Origin: Lachnospiraceae bacterium
GTDB taxonomy: Bacteria; Bacillota; Clostridia; Lachnospirales; Lachnospiraceae
Assembly: GCA_024693135.1 (NCBI GenBank)
Contig: JAILLN010000001.1
Coordinates: forward strand, 1-64,000
Reading direction: 5' to 3'
DNA: 64,000 nt
Both the position numbers and the translations under genes were made by a program. Below the pieces are notes generated by a model, which worked only from the letters and a program-made list of their open reading frames with translations, made no database searches and was not told the DNA's origin. Positions 8,999 through 15,293 of this stretch are shown piece after piece; position 1 is the first letter of the stretch; each line of letters opens with the position of its first letter.

Positions 8999-9646
8999 TC
9001 AAAAGCTTAAAAATACCATAAACATCACGACCGCAAAACCCGCAATGAATGCCGGTAAGGTTTGAGATCTGTCCAGATAGGTAATCAATGACCGGAAGCC
9101 AATAAAGATCAATATCGTTCCGCCCATGATCTCGGAACCTGACTTATACCGGTCGCCAAAGACGCTGCCGATCCTGACGCCGGCAGCAGAGATGATAAAG
9201 GTGATGATCCCGATCATGATGACCGCAAAGACGACATTGAAGAGCCGGCTTGTATCCAAAACCTCGACAGGAACGGCAACAAAAGTAATGCCTACCGCCA
9301 GAGCATCTATACTGGTCGCCACCGCCATCATGAACATGGTCTTTCCATCAAAACCCGGTTTGGTCTCCTCCTCCGGCGACAGCGCTTCCTTGATCATATT
9401 TCCTCCGATCAGGGAAAGAAGCCCGAATGCTACCCAGGGGGCGATCATGTTGATATATTTCTCGAAACCAGACCCGATCAGATAGCCGATAAACGGCATG
9501 ATCCCCTGGAAGGCTCCAAACCAGGCGCCACATAAAAAGTATTCTTTTTTTGTGGTCTTTCCGGCCGCAAGTCCTTTGCATATGGAAACAGCAAACGCAT
9601 CCATAGCCAGGCCGACCGATAAAAGAAAAAGTTCAAATAATCCCAT
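8999..9646 (-). CDS. mntP: MntP-type manganese efflux pump
   Basis: A 215-residue membrane protein with six hydrophobic helices in two halves, each with the conserved acidic motif of the family: GLAMDAFAVSICKGL in helix 1 and ATSIDALAVGITF in the second half. MntP exports Mn(II) across the cytoplasmic membrane. The frame opens at TTG 9694, but MGLFELFLLSVG at 9646 matches the usual start of the family, although no good ribosome site precedes either. The 87-base gap upstream is too short, and lacks the conserved core, for the yybP-ykoY manganese riboswitch often found before mntP. Confidence 0.88.
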   Translation of the reverse strand: MGLFELFLLSVGLAMDAFAVSICKGLAAGKTTKKEYFLCGAWFGAFQGIMPFIGYLIGSGFEKYINMIAPWVAFGLLSLIGGNMIKEALSPEEETKPGFDGKTMFMMAVATSIDALAVGITFVAVPVEVLDTSRLFNVVFAVIMIGIITFIISAAGVRIGSVFGDRYKSGSEIMGGTILIFIGFRSLITYLDRSQTLPAFIAGFAVVMFMVFLSF

Positions 9647-9733
9647 GATCCATTGTTGTATGATCCGGTTCCTGACAGTTTTTAAGAAAAACAACCCCGC
9701 TGCCTGCCGGAGGTCCTGCCTGGATTTCTCCTA

Positions 9734-11296
9734 TCAATCTGTCTTCTGTGTATATGCTTCCGAATACTTCTCTGTGATCTCTGTCGGCAGTTCAAAATGC
9801 TGGTAGTCTTTCGTGTCTGTCCAGTCCCCTCCCCACTCGAAGCCTTTTTCGGTAAAGAGCTTATAGCACAGATCATCCTTTTCTATCTTGTAATCAAATT
9901 CCTTTGTTCTGTCCAGATAAGGTGCCCCTGTAGCAGGTTCTATCACTTCTTCCGCAGTCCCGTCTTCCTTCGTCACGACCTTGTGATAGGGATTGTACAG
10001 CGTATTGATATCCACCGCCATTCCCAGTCCGTGTTTTGAAATTTTATTGGTATGTGATATGAATCTGAAGTTAAAGCAGGACGAGTTATTATCACGCATC
10101 ATCGTCTCATCGTCAGCCAGGTAGTTGTCCGGAAGCACCATGCGCTCTATCGGATAGCCCGCATCATACAGTTTCTCAAAAATCTCCAAAACATCCTCTG
10201 CGATCTGTTTATGCACGACCATTTCTCCCTGATGGGTATTGCCGTCCTTATCTTTGTGCAGGACCAGCAGATAACGCAGATCTTCCCTTGGCACAATGCA
10301 ATCCTCTTTATAAGTATTTCCCTTTTTCATTCTATCAAATAGATCGTCTGGGATTTCCTGAATAGAAAAGCCCTCCCTGCTTTCCATGAAAAGTGCCTCC
10401 CCGCCTTCTGCAGCCTCTTTCTCATCGTCTGTCCCATTACCCGTTTCCACCTTCTTTATCTCTTCGCTCTGGTCTATGGTCAGGTCAAAGTTCTGAAACA
10501 TCTCATTATCCGGCAGTGCCATGGAAAAGGAATCGCTTCTGTCTATGCTTACATCAAGCTCATCCGCGCTGAGGTCAAGCACATGGCCTCCGGCCTTTCT
10601 TTCATCTGAGATAAAATGGAAGTGCCATCCAACGGCATTGATATCCCCCATATACTCAGGACAGTACAGGCCTACCACGGTTCCCTTTATGTTTTCGTAA
10701 TCAAAAAAGGTCTGATCGGTTTCCAATACCTCCGCCAATGGTTTATACGGCTTCGTTTGGGGAAGTTCGCTTCGCACATTCATCTGACGGAAGGTTCCTT
10801 CCGCCCGGATCATGTAAAGCCGGTTTACCCCCATGCTGCTGACCTTTCGGTCAAGCTCAGCCTTCAGAGTATTCATGTTGTCTATCCCGGTAAGCTGTAT
10901 CACCTCATCGGCATCAAAAAATGTCACATTCGAAAAAGGGATCGTCTCTTCATCCGAAACCACCTCGACCGTGCCATCATAAGCGGCTCGGTAAACTGTC
11001 CCCTCAAGCATGATGAGTTCGCCGTCAAGCGCATCAAATGTGCCGATCCCCGTGTCCCCAAGCTCCTTCAGCCGGCTCACGGAAACGCTTCCATTATAAT
11101 CGCCAAAGGTAAGCCCCTGCAGAAGAGATACCTGATGGATCACATCCCTCCCGCCTGCACTGGCGCCTGAAGCACTGCCGTCTAAGGCATTGCTGTTTAT
11201 ATTAATGTCAATATTGGCGCAGGCCGTTAATAATACAGACGACATCAATAAAATCCCACTTACCAGACAATGCTTCCTCTGTTTCGAATCCTTCAT
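9734..11296 (-). CDS. Lipoprotein: alpha-acetolactate decarboxylase domain fused to M15 peptidase
   Basis: A 520-residue protein of two enzymes in one chain. A signal peptide ends in the lipobox LLTAC (Cys26). Residues about 50-270 match alpha-acetolactate decarboxylase: GTFDALDGELIML with Glu93, RSELPQTKPYKPL with Arg175, and the zinc motif WHFHF...GGHVLDL with His225, His227 and His238. All key residues of that family are present. After an acidic linker, residues about 325-510 match M15 (VanY/CwlK-like) peptidases: KHGLGMAVDIN with zinc ligands His422 and Asp429, then GFEWGGDW and QHFELP with His500. Acetolactate decarboxylases are normally free cytoplasmic enzymes, so an exported copy on a cell-wall peptidase is odd. 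The ATG has GGAGGA upstream, and the leader is about 270 bases. Confidence 0.88.
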   Translation of the reverse strand: MKDSKQRKHCLVSGILLMSSVLLTACANIDININSNALDGSASGASAGGRDVIHQVSLLQGLTFGDYNGSVSVSRLKELGDTGIGTFDALDGELIMLEGTVYRAAYDGTVEVVSDEETIPFSNVTFFDADEVIQLTGIDNMNTLKAELDRKVSSMGVNRLYMIRAEGTFRQMNVRSELPQTKPYKPLAEVLETDQTFFDYENIKGTVVGLYCPEYMGDINAVGWHFHFISDERKAGGHVLDLSADELDVSIDRSDSFSMALPDNEMFQNFDLTIDQSEEIKKVETGNGTDDEKEAAEGGEALFMESREGFSIQEIPDDLFDRMKKGNTYKEDCIVPREDLRYLLVLHKDKDGNTHQGEMVVHKQIAEDVLEIFEKLYDAGYPIERMVLPDNYLADDETMMRDNNSSCFNFRFISHTNKISKHGLGMAVDINTLYNPYHKVVTKEDGTAEEVIEPATGAPYLDRTKEFDYKIEKDDLCYKLFTEKGFEWGGDWTDTKDYQHFELPTEITEKYSEAYTQKTD

Positions 11297-11583
11297 TTCG
11301 TCCTCCTCTATAAACGCATATTTATATCTGACTTACACCGGCCGGATGCGAAACCCGTAACCGGACAAAAACGCATCGCTTTACCGCCGCCTTAATTCTG
11401 TTTTCCCGTTCATCTGATCCACCGAAAATGCCCGTCTTCTGTTACCATGACCGCAGCGGATGCAATCCGGTGTATTCTTTTCAAGCCAAGAGGCCCTGCG
11501 GATACACTTCCATGTCCCTGCGCTTCTTCACTGTGGGATACTTTTTTCATAAACGCTTATAACGTATCGCAACAATTATAGCA
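11297..11583 (-). promoter_or_regulatory. Long 5' leader and promoter of the decarboxylase-peptidase gene
   Basis: This gene-free stretch (to 11690) has an extended -10 promoter TGCTATAAT on the minus strand at 11575-11583, which would give a 5' leader of about 270 bases. Its last 35 bases (11301-11335) repeat almost exactly before the gene at 35952. A shorter related copy, with ATAAACGC and TTATA, lies at 11549-11563 close to the expected transcript start. A 44-codon frame starting MKKVSHSEEAQG opens about 20 bases after the -10 box, without a ribosome site. I could not match the leader to a known riboswitch. Bases 11584-11690 show nothing clear. Confidence 0.5.
11301..11335 (-). repeat. Copy 1 of a 35-bp leader repeat
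   Basis: Read on the minus strand it contains GTCAGATATAA, two variable bases, ATGCGTTTAT, then GAGGAGGA and the start codon region. The copy at 35955-35990 has the same order and spacing and differs at a few positions only. The two genes behind them are unrelated. Confidence 0.7.
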
Positions 11584-11690: not shown

Positions 11691-13457
11691 TTATGCGATC
11701 TGCCAGTTTTCCGCCTCCTGTCTTAACCTGACAAATCCGGCGTATTTGCCGCCAAGGCTTATCAGCTCCCTGTGCTTTCCTCTTTCAATGATCCTGCCGT
11801 CATCCACCACGAGTATCTGATCTGCCGCTTCTATCGTTGCCAGCCTGTGGGCGATTATGATCACCGTCTTGCCTCTTGACAGCTCCGTAAGGGCACCCTG
11901 GATCAGGTGCTCGTTTTCCGGATCTATGCTGGCGGTAGACTCATCAAGGATGATTATGGGCGCATCCTTCAGTATCGCTCTGGCTATGGAGATCCTCTGT
12001 TTCTGCCCTCCAGACAGCGTGCCTCCACCTTCACCGATCACTGTATCATACCCATTCGGAAGCTCCATGATAAAGTCATGGCATCTCGCTTTCTTTGCCG
12101 CCTCTATCATCTCCTCCTCGGTCACGTTTTCCCTTCCAAAGCAGATGTTCGCCCGTACGGTATCATTGAACAGATATACATTCTGGAAGACCATCGAGAT
12201 ATTTGACAGCAGGCTGTCCAGGCTGTACTCCTTTACATCCCTGCCGCCCAGTGTGACCGATCCTTTACTCACATCATAAAATCTTGCGATCAGATTGCAG
12301 ATCGTAGTCTTGCCGCTTCCCGAAGGTCCTACGATCGCTGTGGTAGTCCCTTCCGGGATCGTAAAGGAAATATCTTTAAGAACCTTTCTATCCTCCGTCG
12401 ACGAAGCATTGTAATATGAGAAATCCACATGATCGAATCCTATGTCATAATCTTCGCATTGAATGTCGGAACCTTTGACATCCAACAGGTTATTCTCGGA
12501 GAACATCTCCATTTTGTTAAATGCATTATCGATCACCGACAGGACGTGCGCACTGTCCGCAATGGGCTCTACGGAGTTAAATATGGACATCGACAGGAAG
12601 GATACGATGAGTACCATGGATAATCCCAGCCTGCCCGCGATCCCTGCGTACATTACCGCCATGATCATCCAAACGCTTGCCGCTTTGAGCGCGAATATAT
12701 GCAGGCAGTTGTATGGAATGAAACCCCATTCGATCTTAAGGGCTATCTCTTTTGCACTTCGGCACGCATCCTTAAAGTCCTTTGATGAAGCCCCCTCCAT
12801 CCCAAAGGATTTCACGACAGGCAGTCCTCTCGTATATTCCAGGGCCGCTCTGGTAAGCCGCTCATTCTCCTCATTCAGTACCTTCGTATTGTCTTTGCTG
12901 TGCCTTGATATCATCAGAAGAAAAATGAATGATCCCGCCGCTCCGCATATTGCGATCAGGGCACATTCCGGAATGGTGAATGCGAGGAATAAAAGCACGC
13001 ATAAGAAATTCAGATATCCTCCGATAAATCCGTCCACCATACGTATCCCCATGTTTTCCAGCGTTGCCAGTCCGGTCGTAATGGCATTTAAGATCCTGCC
13101 GGTATCGTTTGTCTGGAAATATCCCAAGGATACTCTTTTGAGTGCCTCGCCCACCTTCAGCCGGTCTCTGGCCACTAGTTCATAGCCTATCTTTTCATGA
13201 AACCTTGCCTTCAGATAGTCAAACAGGAATCTCGCGCAGACCATCAGCAAGATCATGAAAAAGCTCTTCCAGGCCAGCATCGGATCGATGCTCTTTTTAT
13301 TCCCGGCGGCATCGATGATCTGCCCGATCACATATCCTGAATAAGCCACGGGAGCCGCCACCGCCCATGATGAAAGAAAAGAAAATACAAATCCGATAAA
13401 AAGACTTGCTTTGAATCCTTCGCACCAGTCTATGATCCGCTTTACCGTTCTGAACAT
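11691..13457 (-). CDS. ABC exporter half-transporter (permease-ATPase), second subunit
   Basis: A 588-residue type-I exporter half: six membrane helices (residues about 20-310) and a nucleotide-binding domain with Walker A GPSGSGKTT, signature LSGGQKQR and Walker B IIILDEST, all intact. It starts one base after the stop of the companion half at 13459, with AAGGAGG in the end of that gene, so both subunits are made together and should form a heterodimer. The TetR gene just upstream suggests an inducible exporter or a siderophore/peptide transporter like IrtAB or YbtPQ. The substrate is not shown by sequence. No clear terminator follows. Confidence 0.88.
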   Translation of the reverse strand: MFRTVKRIIDWCEGFKASLFIGFVFSFLSSWAVAAPVAYSGYVIGQIIDAAGNKKSIDPMLAWKSFFMILLMVCARFLFDYLKARFHEKIGYELVARDRLKVGEALKRVSLGYFQTNDTGRILNAITTGLATLENMGIRMVDGFIGGYLNFLCVLLFLAFTIPECALIAICGAAGSFIFLLMISRHSKDNTKVLNEENERLTRAALEYTRGLPVVKSFGMEGASSKDFKDACRSAKEIALKIEWGFIPYNCLHIFALKAASVWMIMAVMYAGIAGRLGLSMVLIVSFLSMSIFNSVEPIADSAHVLSVIDNAFNKMEMFSENNLLDVKGSDIQCEDYDIGFDHVDFSYYNASSTEDRKVLKDISFTIPEGTTTAIVGPSGSGKTTICNLIARFYDVSKGSVTLGGRDVKEYSLDSLLSNISMVFQNVYLFNDTVRANICFGRENVTEEEMIEAAKKARCHDFIMELPNGYDTVIGEGGGTLSGGQKQRISIARAILKDAPIIILDESTASIDPENEHLIQGALTELSRGKTVIIIAHRLATIEAADQILVVDDGRIIERGKHRELISLGGKYAGFVRLRQEAENWQIA

Positions 13458-13458
13458 C

Positions 13459-15252
13459 TCACGCCTCCTTTACCTGTCCGGCCGCCGCATTTCCTGCGGC
13501 CCAGTTTTTTGCACCTATATGAGCCTGCCACATTCTTTCGTAGAGAGGACATGCCCTGATCAGCTCTTCCTGTCTTCCCTGCGCCTTTATCCGGCCGTTA
13601 TCCAGTACCACAATATTGTCTGCATTCTTTATCGTTGAAAGCCTGTGGGCGATGACCAGCAATGTCTTGCCCTTTGTCAGATTGGCAATGGATTCCTGGA
13701 GCTTCGTTTCATTTTCGGGATCCGTAAACGCTGTCGCCTCATCCAGTATCACGATCGGGGCATCCTTCAGCATCATACGCGCGATCGCTATCCTCTGCCT
13801 CTCACCGCCCGACAGGCGCTTTCCTGCTTCTCCTGCTGACGTATCATATCCATTGGGAAGCTTTCTGATGAACTCATCACAACAGGCCGCCTTTGCCGCC
13901 TCCACTACTTCTTCATCTGTGGCCTCGGGTCTGCCCAGCCTGATATTTTCTTTTATCGATCTCGAAAACAGGAAATTATCCTGGGTCACGAAGCTGACGA
14001 TATTTGCCAGCGATGTTACCTTCATGTCCTTAATGTCGATCCCGCCGATCTTTATCGTGCCCCCAGTCACATCCCAGAACCTTGCGATCAGCTTTGCGAC
14101 CGTAGATTTTCCTCCCCCGCTCGGTCCAACCAGTGCCGTAAAGCTGCCCTCGTGCAAGGTGAGGTCTATCCCATGGAGCACCTCACCTTCTTCGTCATCG
14201 TAAGAAAAGTGGACATCTCTCAGCTCGATGCCGTAACGATCCGGGAGCTTTTCAAAAGCAGGTTCCGGCAGGCTTTCTATCTTCAGGAGCTTTTGGATCT
14301 CTAAAACCGTATACTGCATCTGTCTGAGCCCGTTTGAAAAGACCTCTATCTTGGCCATGCTTATCACCATGGACATGGCGAGCATCACGGCGAGTGCCAT
14401 TTCCGATATCGTCATGCTGCCTTTTTGCACAAGCAGTATGCATACAGGAACTGTTCCCAGCAATGTCGCAGGCATGAAAGCAAAGGCCAGTTTCATCGTG
14501 ATCCATGTGGATTCCAGCCATTCGATGACAAAATCCCGGTAGTCTCTGATCGCTCCGGCAAACTTCTCATAGCTTACTCCTGCCTTTCCGAAGGCTTTGA
14601 TCACCTCGATACCCTCTACATATTCCACGATCATGCTGCTCATGCCTGCGTTTGCTTCCTGATACTTCGTCATATTTTTTCCGCTGAGTTTGAATGTGAG
14701 CACCATAAAGATCATTCCGAGGGGCAGGGAAAGAAGTGATGCGAAAGCAGCTCGTATATCCACCATCATGAGCGCGGCGAAGCAGACGATCGGAAGCAGT
14801 ATATGCCCCGCTCCCTCCGGAACCACATGCGCAAGGGGCGGCTCGATGTCTTCGATCTTATCTATGATCACGCTTTTGATCTCGCCGATGGAATGGGAAT
14901 AGACTTCACCGAGCGGAGCCATTAAAAAGGTATCCGCCACCTTAAGCCTTAGGCCTTCCAGGACATTAAACGCCACATAATGCGATATCCCTGTAGAGAT
15001 CCCGAAGCAGACGACTTTAACAAGATAAGCAAATAGAGCGATCATACAGAAATGCATAACCAGCGTTTTGTCTGCATTTCCGCTGATATATCCATCCAGG
15101 ATCCGGTAAACGCAGTAATACGGCACGATGCCGGCTACAAGACTTGCCATGGAAAAGACAACCGATATCCCCAGTCGTCCCCCGCTGCCCTTCGCATAAG
15201 AGAGCAATGTGCCAAACCATCTCTTTTCTTCTTTGGTTACCTCTTCATTCAT
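13459..15252 (-). CDS. ABC exporter half-transporter (permease-ATPase), first subunit
   Basis: A 597-residue exporter half with six membrane helices and an ATPase domain: Walker A GPSGGGKST, signature LSGGERQR, Walker B IVILDEAT. Both ATP sites of the predicted heterodimer look competent. The frame can be read from 15282, but AAAGGAAGG lies just before the ATG at 15252 (MNEEVTKEEK), which was chosen. Its leader holds a hairpin and a GTTAGC motif also found in the TetR promoter, so it is probably controlled by that repressor. Confidence 0.88.
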   Translation of the reverse strand: MNEEVTKEEKRWFGTLLSYAKGSGGRLGISVVFSMASLVAGIVPYYCVYRILDGYISGNADKTLVMHFCMIALFAYLVKVVCFGISTGISHYVAFNVLEGLRLKVADTFLMAPLGEVYSHSIGEIKSVIIDKIEDIEPPLAHVVPEGAGHILLPIVCFAALMMVDIRAAFASLLSLPLGMIFMVLTFKLSGKNMTKYQEANAGMSSMIVEYVEGIEVIKAFGKAGVSYEKFAGAIRDYRDFVIEWLESTWITMKLAFAFMPATLLGTVPVCILLVQKGSMTISEMALAVMLAMSMVISMAKIEVFSNGLRQMQYTVLEIQKLLKIESLPEPAFEKLPDRYGIELRDVHFSYDDEEGEVLHGIDLTLHEGSFTALVGPSGGGKSTVAKLIARFWDVTGGTIKIGGIDIKDMKVTSLANIVSFVTQDNFLFSRSIKENIRLGRPEATDEEVVEAAKAACCDEFIRKLPNGYDTSAGEAGKRLSGGERQRIAIARMMLKDAPIVILDEATAFTDPENETKLQESIANLTKGKTLLVIAHRLSTIKNADNIVVLDNGRIKAQGRQEELIRACPLYERMWQAHIGAKNWAAGNAAAGQVKEA

Positions 15253-15293
15253 AATGCCTTCCTTTCTTTTGTTTGTTAACATTTCATGATCCT

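Follow-up and report, generated by a model that had tools for sequence, protein, structure and literature searches.

Alpha-acetolactate decarboxylase (ALDC) is usually treated as a cytoplasmic fermentation enzyme. The locus studied here raises the question of how such a domain came to be joined to an M15 peptidase on a putative lipoprotein, and what the joined protein may do. The gene is located at 9734..11296 on the minus strand of the window, a 64,000-nucleotide stretch of DNA from a Lachnospiraceae bacterium whose relatives dwell in animal guts. Defined by a single open frame and by Pfam and NCBIfam matches, it encodes 520 residues with zero internal stops, and inspection of the sequence showed a likely ribosome-binding site AGGAGG (11302..11307, minus strand) 5 bp before the ATG. 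The leader, which comprises residues 1-37 (11186..11296, minus strand), contains a signal peptide with the basic start MKDSKQRK followed by LVSGILLMSSVLLTAC, the lipobox LTAC with Cys26, and an ININ stretch; a test of hydropathy and lipobox classified the protein as a lipoprotein. The ALDC domain extends over residues 53-286, including the C-terminal Glu284 (10439..11140, minus strand), as delimited by PF03306, the fold match to 4bt2, the active-site comparison and DNA homology. It is followed by an acidic linker, residues 287-305 (10382..10438, minus strand), which is mostly disordered in the model, with pLDDT under 50 at 289-304, and by the M15 peptidase region, residues 306-518 (9743..10381, minus strand), which was assigned from PF13539, its invariant residues and a profile match to L-Ala-D-Glu peptidases, and which has its Pfam core at residues 415-503 (9788-10054, minus strand). 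The AlphaFold2 model of the full protein had a mean pLDDT of 80.7 and a pTM of 0.54, with residues 51-260 in blocks of 87-98. The initial annotation had proposed one lipoprotein with full ALDC and M15 domains, and it had named a frameshift merging two genes as one danger to this reading; the single unbroken frame, the lipobox and the two domain matches bear the proposal out.

The gene is flanked by an MntP-type manganese efflux pump gene (8999..9694, minus strand; PF02659, E 2e-44), which lies 39 bp downstream on the same strand and is possibly co-transcribed with it, and upstream by two ABC transporter genes assigned with Pfam (11691-13457 and 13459-15282, together 11691..15282, minus strand); intergenic gaps were measured from first start codons. 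This setting is different from that of alsSD-type operons, where the synthase stands beside ALDC, and no acetolactate synthase was found among the scanned neighbors in the window. Metal transporters were seen next to ALDC genes twice, namely MntP at 8999-9694 of the window and a ZIP zinc transporter beside a cytosolic ALDC (L195:7708-8496), which may reflect metal supply or chance.

The AAL_decarboxy model (PF03306) matched residues 53-273 of the fusion protein with E 3e-71 and 239.7 bits against a Pfam cut-off of 25, so that the fear of an absent ALDC profile match, raised together with the initial annotation, gave way to a strong match. The NCBIfam equivalog acetolac_decarb (TIGR01252) scored 205 bits, where the cut-off is 181. 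Eight solved sequences were matched by the fusion, of which six are named alpha-acetolactate decarboxylase, one is similar, and one, an L-Ala-D-Glu peptidase, corresponds to the other half. The active site was compared in a 66-row alignment made of 64 rows from loci and two references, 4bt2, which we take to be the Brevibacillus brevis ALDC, and 6j3d from Bacillus subtilis. Glu93, Arg175, His225, His227 and His238 aligned with 4bt2 positions 65, 145, 194, 196 and 207, respectively. At nine 4bt2 positions chosen after the B. brevis work (T58, L62, E65, T97, R145, H194, H196, H207 and E253) the window residue was the same as in both references in 9/9 cases; H194, H196, H207, E65, R145 and E253 are presumably the zinc-binding and catalytic positions. 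The structure-prediction check that had been suggested also came out in favor of ALDC, as 4bt2 was the top Foldseek match of this part of the model (E 3e-29, TM 0.95 by target length, rmsd 1.3). Judging from sequence and model, the domain is a full acetolactate decarboxylase with the known fold and intact active-site residues, and its activity is predicted. It shares the fold, the zinc ligands, the catalytic Glu and Arg, and the C-terminal Glu with AlsD, BudA and AldB (PF03306, TIGR01252; 4bt2, 5xne, 6j3d), and the fusion differs from these enzymes by its lipoprotein leader and its C-terminal M15 domain.

The second domain matched Peptidase_M15_4 (PF13539) at residues 415-503 with E 4e-21 in Pfam, and it has the HxxxxxxD and DxxH motifs, in which His422, Asp429, Asp497 and His500 were invariant in 36/36 aligned M15 rows. 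The alignments placed all the residues named in the initial annotation, which for this domain were His422, Asp429 and His500. By profile, the M15 part was nearest to the L-Ala-D-Glu peptidase 2vo9 (E 1.9e-8, best stretch 39 residues), followed by LysB4 (6akv; E 1.7e-5, best stretch 25 residues), and a separate M15 model with pLDDT 90.9 had the endolysin LysB4 as its best, weak PDB match (Foldseek, E 0.048). The profile matches point to an M15C-like domain with predicted cleavage of the L-Ala-D-Glu endopeptidase type. The description of the Peptidase_M15_4 model in Pfam is D-alanyl-D-alanine carboxypeptidase, and this label makes D-Ala-D-Ala carboxypeptidase the other candidate activity. The motif HxxxxxxD...DxxH and a WGGDW..kDyqHFE segment are common to the fusion and to M15C endopeptidases, namely 2vo9 and CwlK, of which we take the former to be Ply500 and the latter to be a member of this group, LysB4 (6akv) and ChiX. 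The fusion differs from them by a conserved N-terminal part of about 100 residues, by the lipoprotein leader and by the inserted ALDC domain.

The initial annotation considered ALDC to be normally a free cytoplasmic enzyme, the export of which would make little sense for the acetoin pathway. Neither premise agreed with the distribution of ALDC leaders. Matches to PF03306 were present in 14/48 genomes of the genus (13 over the cut-off), 16/397 of the family, 15/295 of the order, 17/391 of the class and 23/398 of the phylum, where the samples at successive ranks overlap and some matches are fragments. A tree was computed by a quick method from 62 of the 66 rows (rows up to L140), with pieces shorter than 150 residues left out, the divergent L096, L097, L102 and L120 dropped, and long branches flagged by the program. 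An export leader, either lipoprotein or Sec, was found on 26 of its 60 non-reference rows by a crude leader test with four labels altered by eye, and therefore the export of ALDC is not new. An exported-only group of 16 rows, including the window, had an SH-aLRT of 86 and contained a lipoprotein subgroup of ten with support 99, and the remaining ten exported rows fell outside this group. The second ALDC of the window genome, which is leaderless and hence labeled cytosolic, was placed in a 28-row group with 27 members without a leader. Lachnospirales also have free exported ALDC lipoproteins (L022, L024, L065, L162-L166, L190-L193), which possess a lipobox and an ALDC domain as in the fusion and, unlike it, consist of a single domain; over the aligned parts, L022, L024, L065 and L162-L166 share 44-78% identity with the window protein. 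Judged by predicted leaders, exported ALDC is an established and common type, often predicted in Firmicutes, including gut and rumen lineages. The B. brevis ALDC was reportedly described by Diderichsen and co-workers in 1990 as a secreted exoenzyme. One report lists AlsD among the proteins present in cell-free liquid from a Bacillus (PMC12020853), where lysis may be the cause. At one locus an exported and a cytosolic ALDC gene were found in tandem, 31 bp apart (L190:7259-8867; G1309:C193), and the ALDC carried by each of two Selenomonas ruminantium plasmids (NC_017076.1 and NC_017078.1) shares 45% identity with the window domain.

The origin of the fusion was traced by comparison with other genomes of the genus. 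In a sister species (G007) the two halves are separate lipoprotein genes on two contigs, with 82% identity for ALDC and 83% for M15. Another genome (G017) has the ALDC lipoprotein gene, and four incomplete genomes (G003, G004, G016, G059) carry the M15 lipoprotein, with no close counterpart to the ALDC half. The fusion leader matched the leader of the G007 M15 protein with a protein score of 93, compared to 21-67 for seven other M15 leaders and 24-47 for seven ALDC leaders, and at the DNA level with a score of 48 over 46 columns, where the shuffled maximum was 24; only the G007 leader gives a clear match, and some of the remaining M15 leaders score no better than ALDC leaders. On the other side, DNA homology to the free ALDC genes of G007 and G017 reaches codon 286 of the fusion, two codons short of their stop. 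Since the leader is M15-like and the ALDC homology ends at this codon, the alignments indicate that the fusion arose when an exported ALDC domain was placed behind the leader of an M15 lipoprotein and ahead of its peptidase domain.

A survey of this domain pair had been proposed. The exact ALDC-M15_4 fusion was seen in one species only, as no second full copy was found in the 48 genomes of the genus or in a scan of genome contigs (24 loci, domains checked), no relatives were found in viral contigs, and among 183 matching plasmid records none had one place covering at least 80% of the fusion. M15 was fused or adjacent to ALDC at 5/78 loci, as described below. The upstream ABC genes, present in whole or part in G051, G003 and G008, were used to look for the locus as it was before the fusion; the resemblance to the window breaks off at 11695, and the stretches compared from these three genomes gave no ALDC-M15 match above 45% identity, and therefore the fusion event is not dated. 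The M15_4 lipoprotein type was present at 20 loci (L043, L045-L063) with 72-89% identity to the window M15 half. Its carriers beyond Lachnospiraceae include an Olsenella intestinalis isolate (L055), a Coriobacteriaceae MAG (L054) and a Spirochaetales MAG (L062), and in Olsenella the G+C content of the gene equals that of its flanks. This distribution looks like horizontal spread with amelioration.

Two other ALDC fusions belong to the same lipoprotein subgroup of the tree. In L064 (CADBMW010000106.1) an exported ALDC is fused to a VanX-type M15 peptidase (PF01427, E 8e-40), and in L031, from the same genus as the window (G061), to an amino-acid-binding SBP_bac_3 domain (PF00497, E 2e-31). In both, as in the window, an exported ALDC is joined to an extracytoplasmic domain, while the partner is PF01427 or PF00497 rather than PF13539. 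Because the free ALDCs L003, L004 and L070 are nearer in the tree to the window domain than L064 or L031, and because the partners differ, the three fusions look independent. The origin of the L064 leader from a VanX lipoprotein was also considered; its protein score was 80 with L261, compared to 22-44 for seven other VanX leaders and 58 for the best of six ALDC leaders, which is suggestive, but there was no support at the DNA level and this origin is not claimed. The fused VanX of L064 grouped loosely (support 85-87) with leader-bearing VanX proteins. A Cu_amine_oxidN1 domain precedes ALDC in L106 and L113. In one other family, an ALDC-like domain ends a long exported DD-carboxypeptidase-like frame in 3/3 genomes (L097, G480:C252; L098, G539:C37; L099, G513:C482, cut at the contig end). 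Pfam, which was run on L097 of these three, gave Peptidase_S11 and AAL_decarboxy; the zinc ligands and the arginine of ALDC are lost in L097, and therefore it is probably a non-catalytic binding domain. A further single frame of 411 aa combines a GNAT acetyltransferase with a leaderless ALDC (L078:979-2211; G278:C46).

The association of ALDC with M15 peptidases was then compared across loci with two home-made profiles, for the M15_4 and the VanX type. The scan covered 80 stretches, many of them short, of which 78 contained ALDC (counting one duplicate, L212, which repeats L065). M15 was fused or directly adjacent on the same strand at five of the 78 ALDC loci (the window, L064, L194, L191 and L203), with domain identity backed by Pfam; at the other 73 there was no M15 match, and none was found farther from ALDC in the scanned stretches. 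In L194 a VanX gene follows 41 bp after an exported-type ALDC, which is cut at its 5' end and the export of which was assumed from 78% identity to an exported ALDC. In L191 an M15_4 lipoprotein gene is followed by a cytosolic ALDC (which, according to the start chosen, overlaps it by 26 bp or begins about 30 bp behind it) and by CstA, and an exported ALDC lies 3.5 kb from this set. In L203 a VanX gene is located about 50 bp before a cytosolic ALDC. Thus, two of the three adjacent pairs contain a cytosolic ALDC, and the VanX proteins of L194 and L203 fall within a set of six without a visible leader (support 99). With the fusions, including the window as starting case, left out of the count, three adjacent pairs were seen in 65 genomes where 0.075 would be expected (P about 7e-5), in a post hoc estimate that assumed random gene order and one gene per 1.05 kb, ignored contig ends and accessory-gene clustering, and used about 80 ALDC and 78 M15 genes tabulated by hand, with some ALDC entries partial and fragment-only genomes left out. 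For comparison, a gene that we take from its sequence to be acetolactate-synthase-like adjoins ALDC at four loci of the same set (L222, L223, L224, L226); acetolactate synthase is the textbook partner of ALDC. Judged by gene order and domain content, ALDC and M15 peptidases have been joined repeatedly, which is the new observation here. At L270:2219-4466 (G142:C22), an M15_4 lipoprotein gene is preceded, at a distance of 64 bp, by the gene of an exported VanX-type protein that has a YkuD L,D-transpeptidase domain at its C-terminus.

Besides the M15 pairing, no conserved context of exported ALDC stood out, and the contexts vary. Among 90 immediate neighbors of clostridial ALDCs, Cu_amine_oxidN1 occurred three times and several families, including Peptidase_M15 and SBP_bac_3, twice, within the 25 of 106 families listed. 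The following neighbors of exported ALDCs carry no background count, and only some were scanned singly: a subtilase with ChW repeats directly upstream (L169), a papain-like protease at about 30 bp (L164), an M20 peptidase at about 40 bp (L163), an NlpC/P60 protein with SLH at about 80 bp (L220), a peptide-binding protein and ABC genes at a distance of a few genes (L024), and pyruvate:ferredoxin oxidoreductase at about 25 bp in two genomes of one genus (L219, L221). No peptidases were found among the close neighbors of ALDC in L065, L170 and L246. In the Spirochaetales MAG, CstA lies two genes before the M15_4 lipoprotein (L062:1947-4545), which can be compared with the M15_4-ALDC-CstA order of L191; CstA near M15_4 may mark a carbon-starvation setting, and no link between CstA and acetolactate was found in the open-access literature. 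In Enterobacter hormaechei, colistin, which targets the envelope, is reported to divert pyruvate to acetoin (PMC10434160). A connection of envelope stress with acetoin would fit this report, which is no evidence for the fusion protein itself.

The leader, the two domains with intact active-site residues and the mosaic origin are established at the level of sequence, and on this basis we favor, with a probability of roughly 60%, a surface-anchored bifunctional lipoprotein in which an ALDC and an L-Ala-D-Glu-type endopeptidase are coupled via a shared condition. The protein would be lipidated at Cys26 and located outside the membrane. Its ALDC domain would turn alpha-acetolactate that leaves its own or neighboring cells into acetoin and CO2 and so dispose of an acid and of a diacetyl precursor, and the M15 domain, on its flexible acidic linker, would cut the L-Ala-D-Glu bond in wall stem peptides. 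The reason for the coupling could be that pyruvate overflow coincides with wall turnover or peptide scavenging, so that a shared site and shared expression would pay off without a common substrate. A pyruvate setting is seen at other loci, with pyruvate:ferredoxin oxidoreductase close to exported ALDC in L219 and L221 and CstA beside cytosolic ALDC in L191. A wider version of this proposal, which we put forward tentatively and with clearly less confidence, is that pyruvate overflow to acetoin and the scavenging of muropeptides or peptides form an unrecognized ALDC-M15 module in Lachnospirales and their kin, encoded by neighboring genes (M15-ALDC-CstA, VanX-ALDC, exported ALDC-VanX) and, in two or more independent cases, by one surface protein with ALDC before M15.

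The coupled function has to be weighed against a neutral fusion, in which two unrelated lipoprotein genes recombined and the joined product carries on both former jobs without any functional link. Leaders and linkers of lipoproteins are interchangeable and chance joins can persist, the ALDC-M15_4 fusion occurs in one species only, the exported ALDC of L031 in the same genus has a different partner, and the M15 lipoprotein is widespread, from Lachnospiraceae to Olsenella and a Spirochaetales MAG. Nevertheless, we regard a neutral origin as unlikely, since M15 stands beside ALDC more often than a simple chance estimate predicts, in two M15 subfamilies and with both cytosolic and exported ALDCs, and since both active sites are intact. 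The idea of the initial annotation that the exported ALDC domain has taken a new cell-wall substrate, such as a keto or lactyl compound freed by the peptidase, is more doubtful still. ALDC or ALDC-like domains do occur on three kinds of wall enzymes, the M15_4 type in the window, the VanX type in L064 and the S11 DD-carboxypeptidase in L097, but the last probably has no catalytic ALDC, the nine compared positions and the fold are unchanged in the window domain, cytosolic ALDC pairs with M15 as well (L191, L203), and free exported ALDCs stand in varied contexts, some of them pyruvate-related. It is very improbable that two genes were wrongly joined by assembly or sequencing. The assembly is fragmentary, with 67 contigs and 88% completeness, and the sister species has two genes; however, an M15-like leader before an ALDC middle would require two in-frame junctions, which makes a contig chimera unlikely, the gene is internal to a contig of 64,160 bases, and neither another M15_4 gene nor another close copy of the ALDC half was found in the window genome, its other ALDC being 37% identical.

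Both domains of the protein belong to known families, and what is new is their architecture and the recurrent ALDC-M15 pairing. In agreement with the initial annotation, which knew of no such protein, no description of an exported or fused ALDC, of the ALDC-M15 architecture or of the recurrent pairing was found in the open-access literature. If the pairing is functional, it would link acetoin overflow metabolism with the hydrolysis of wall peptides, two parts of physiology that are normally unconnected. The predicted export of ALDC would also bear on the fate of acetolactate, diacetyl and acetoin in gut and rumen communities.
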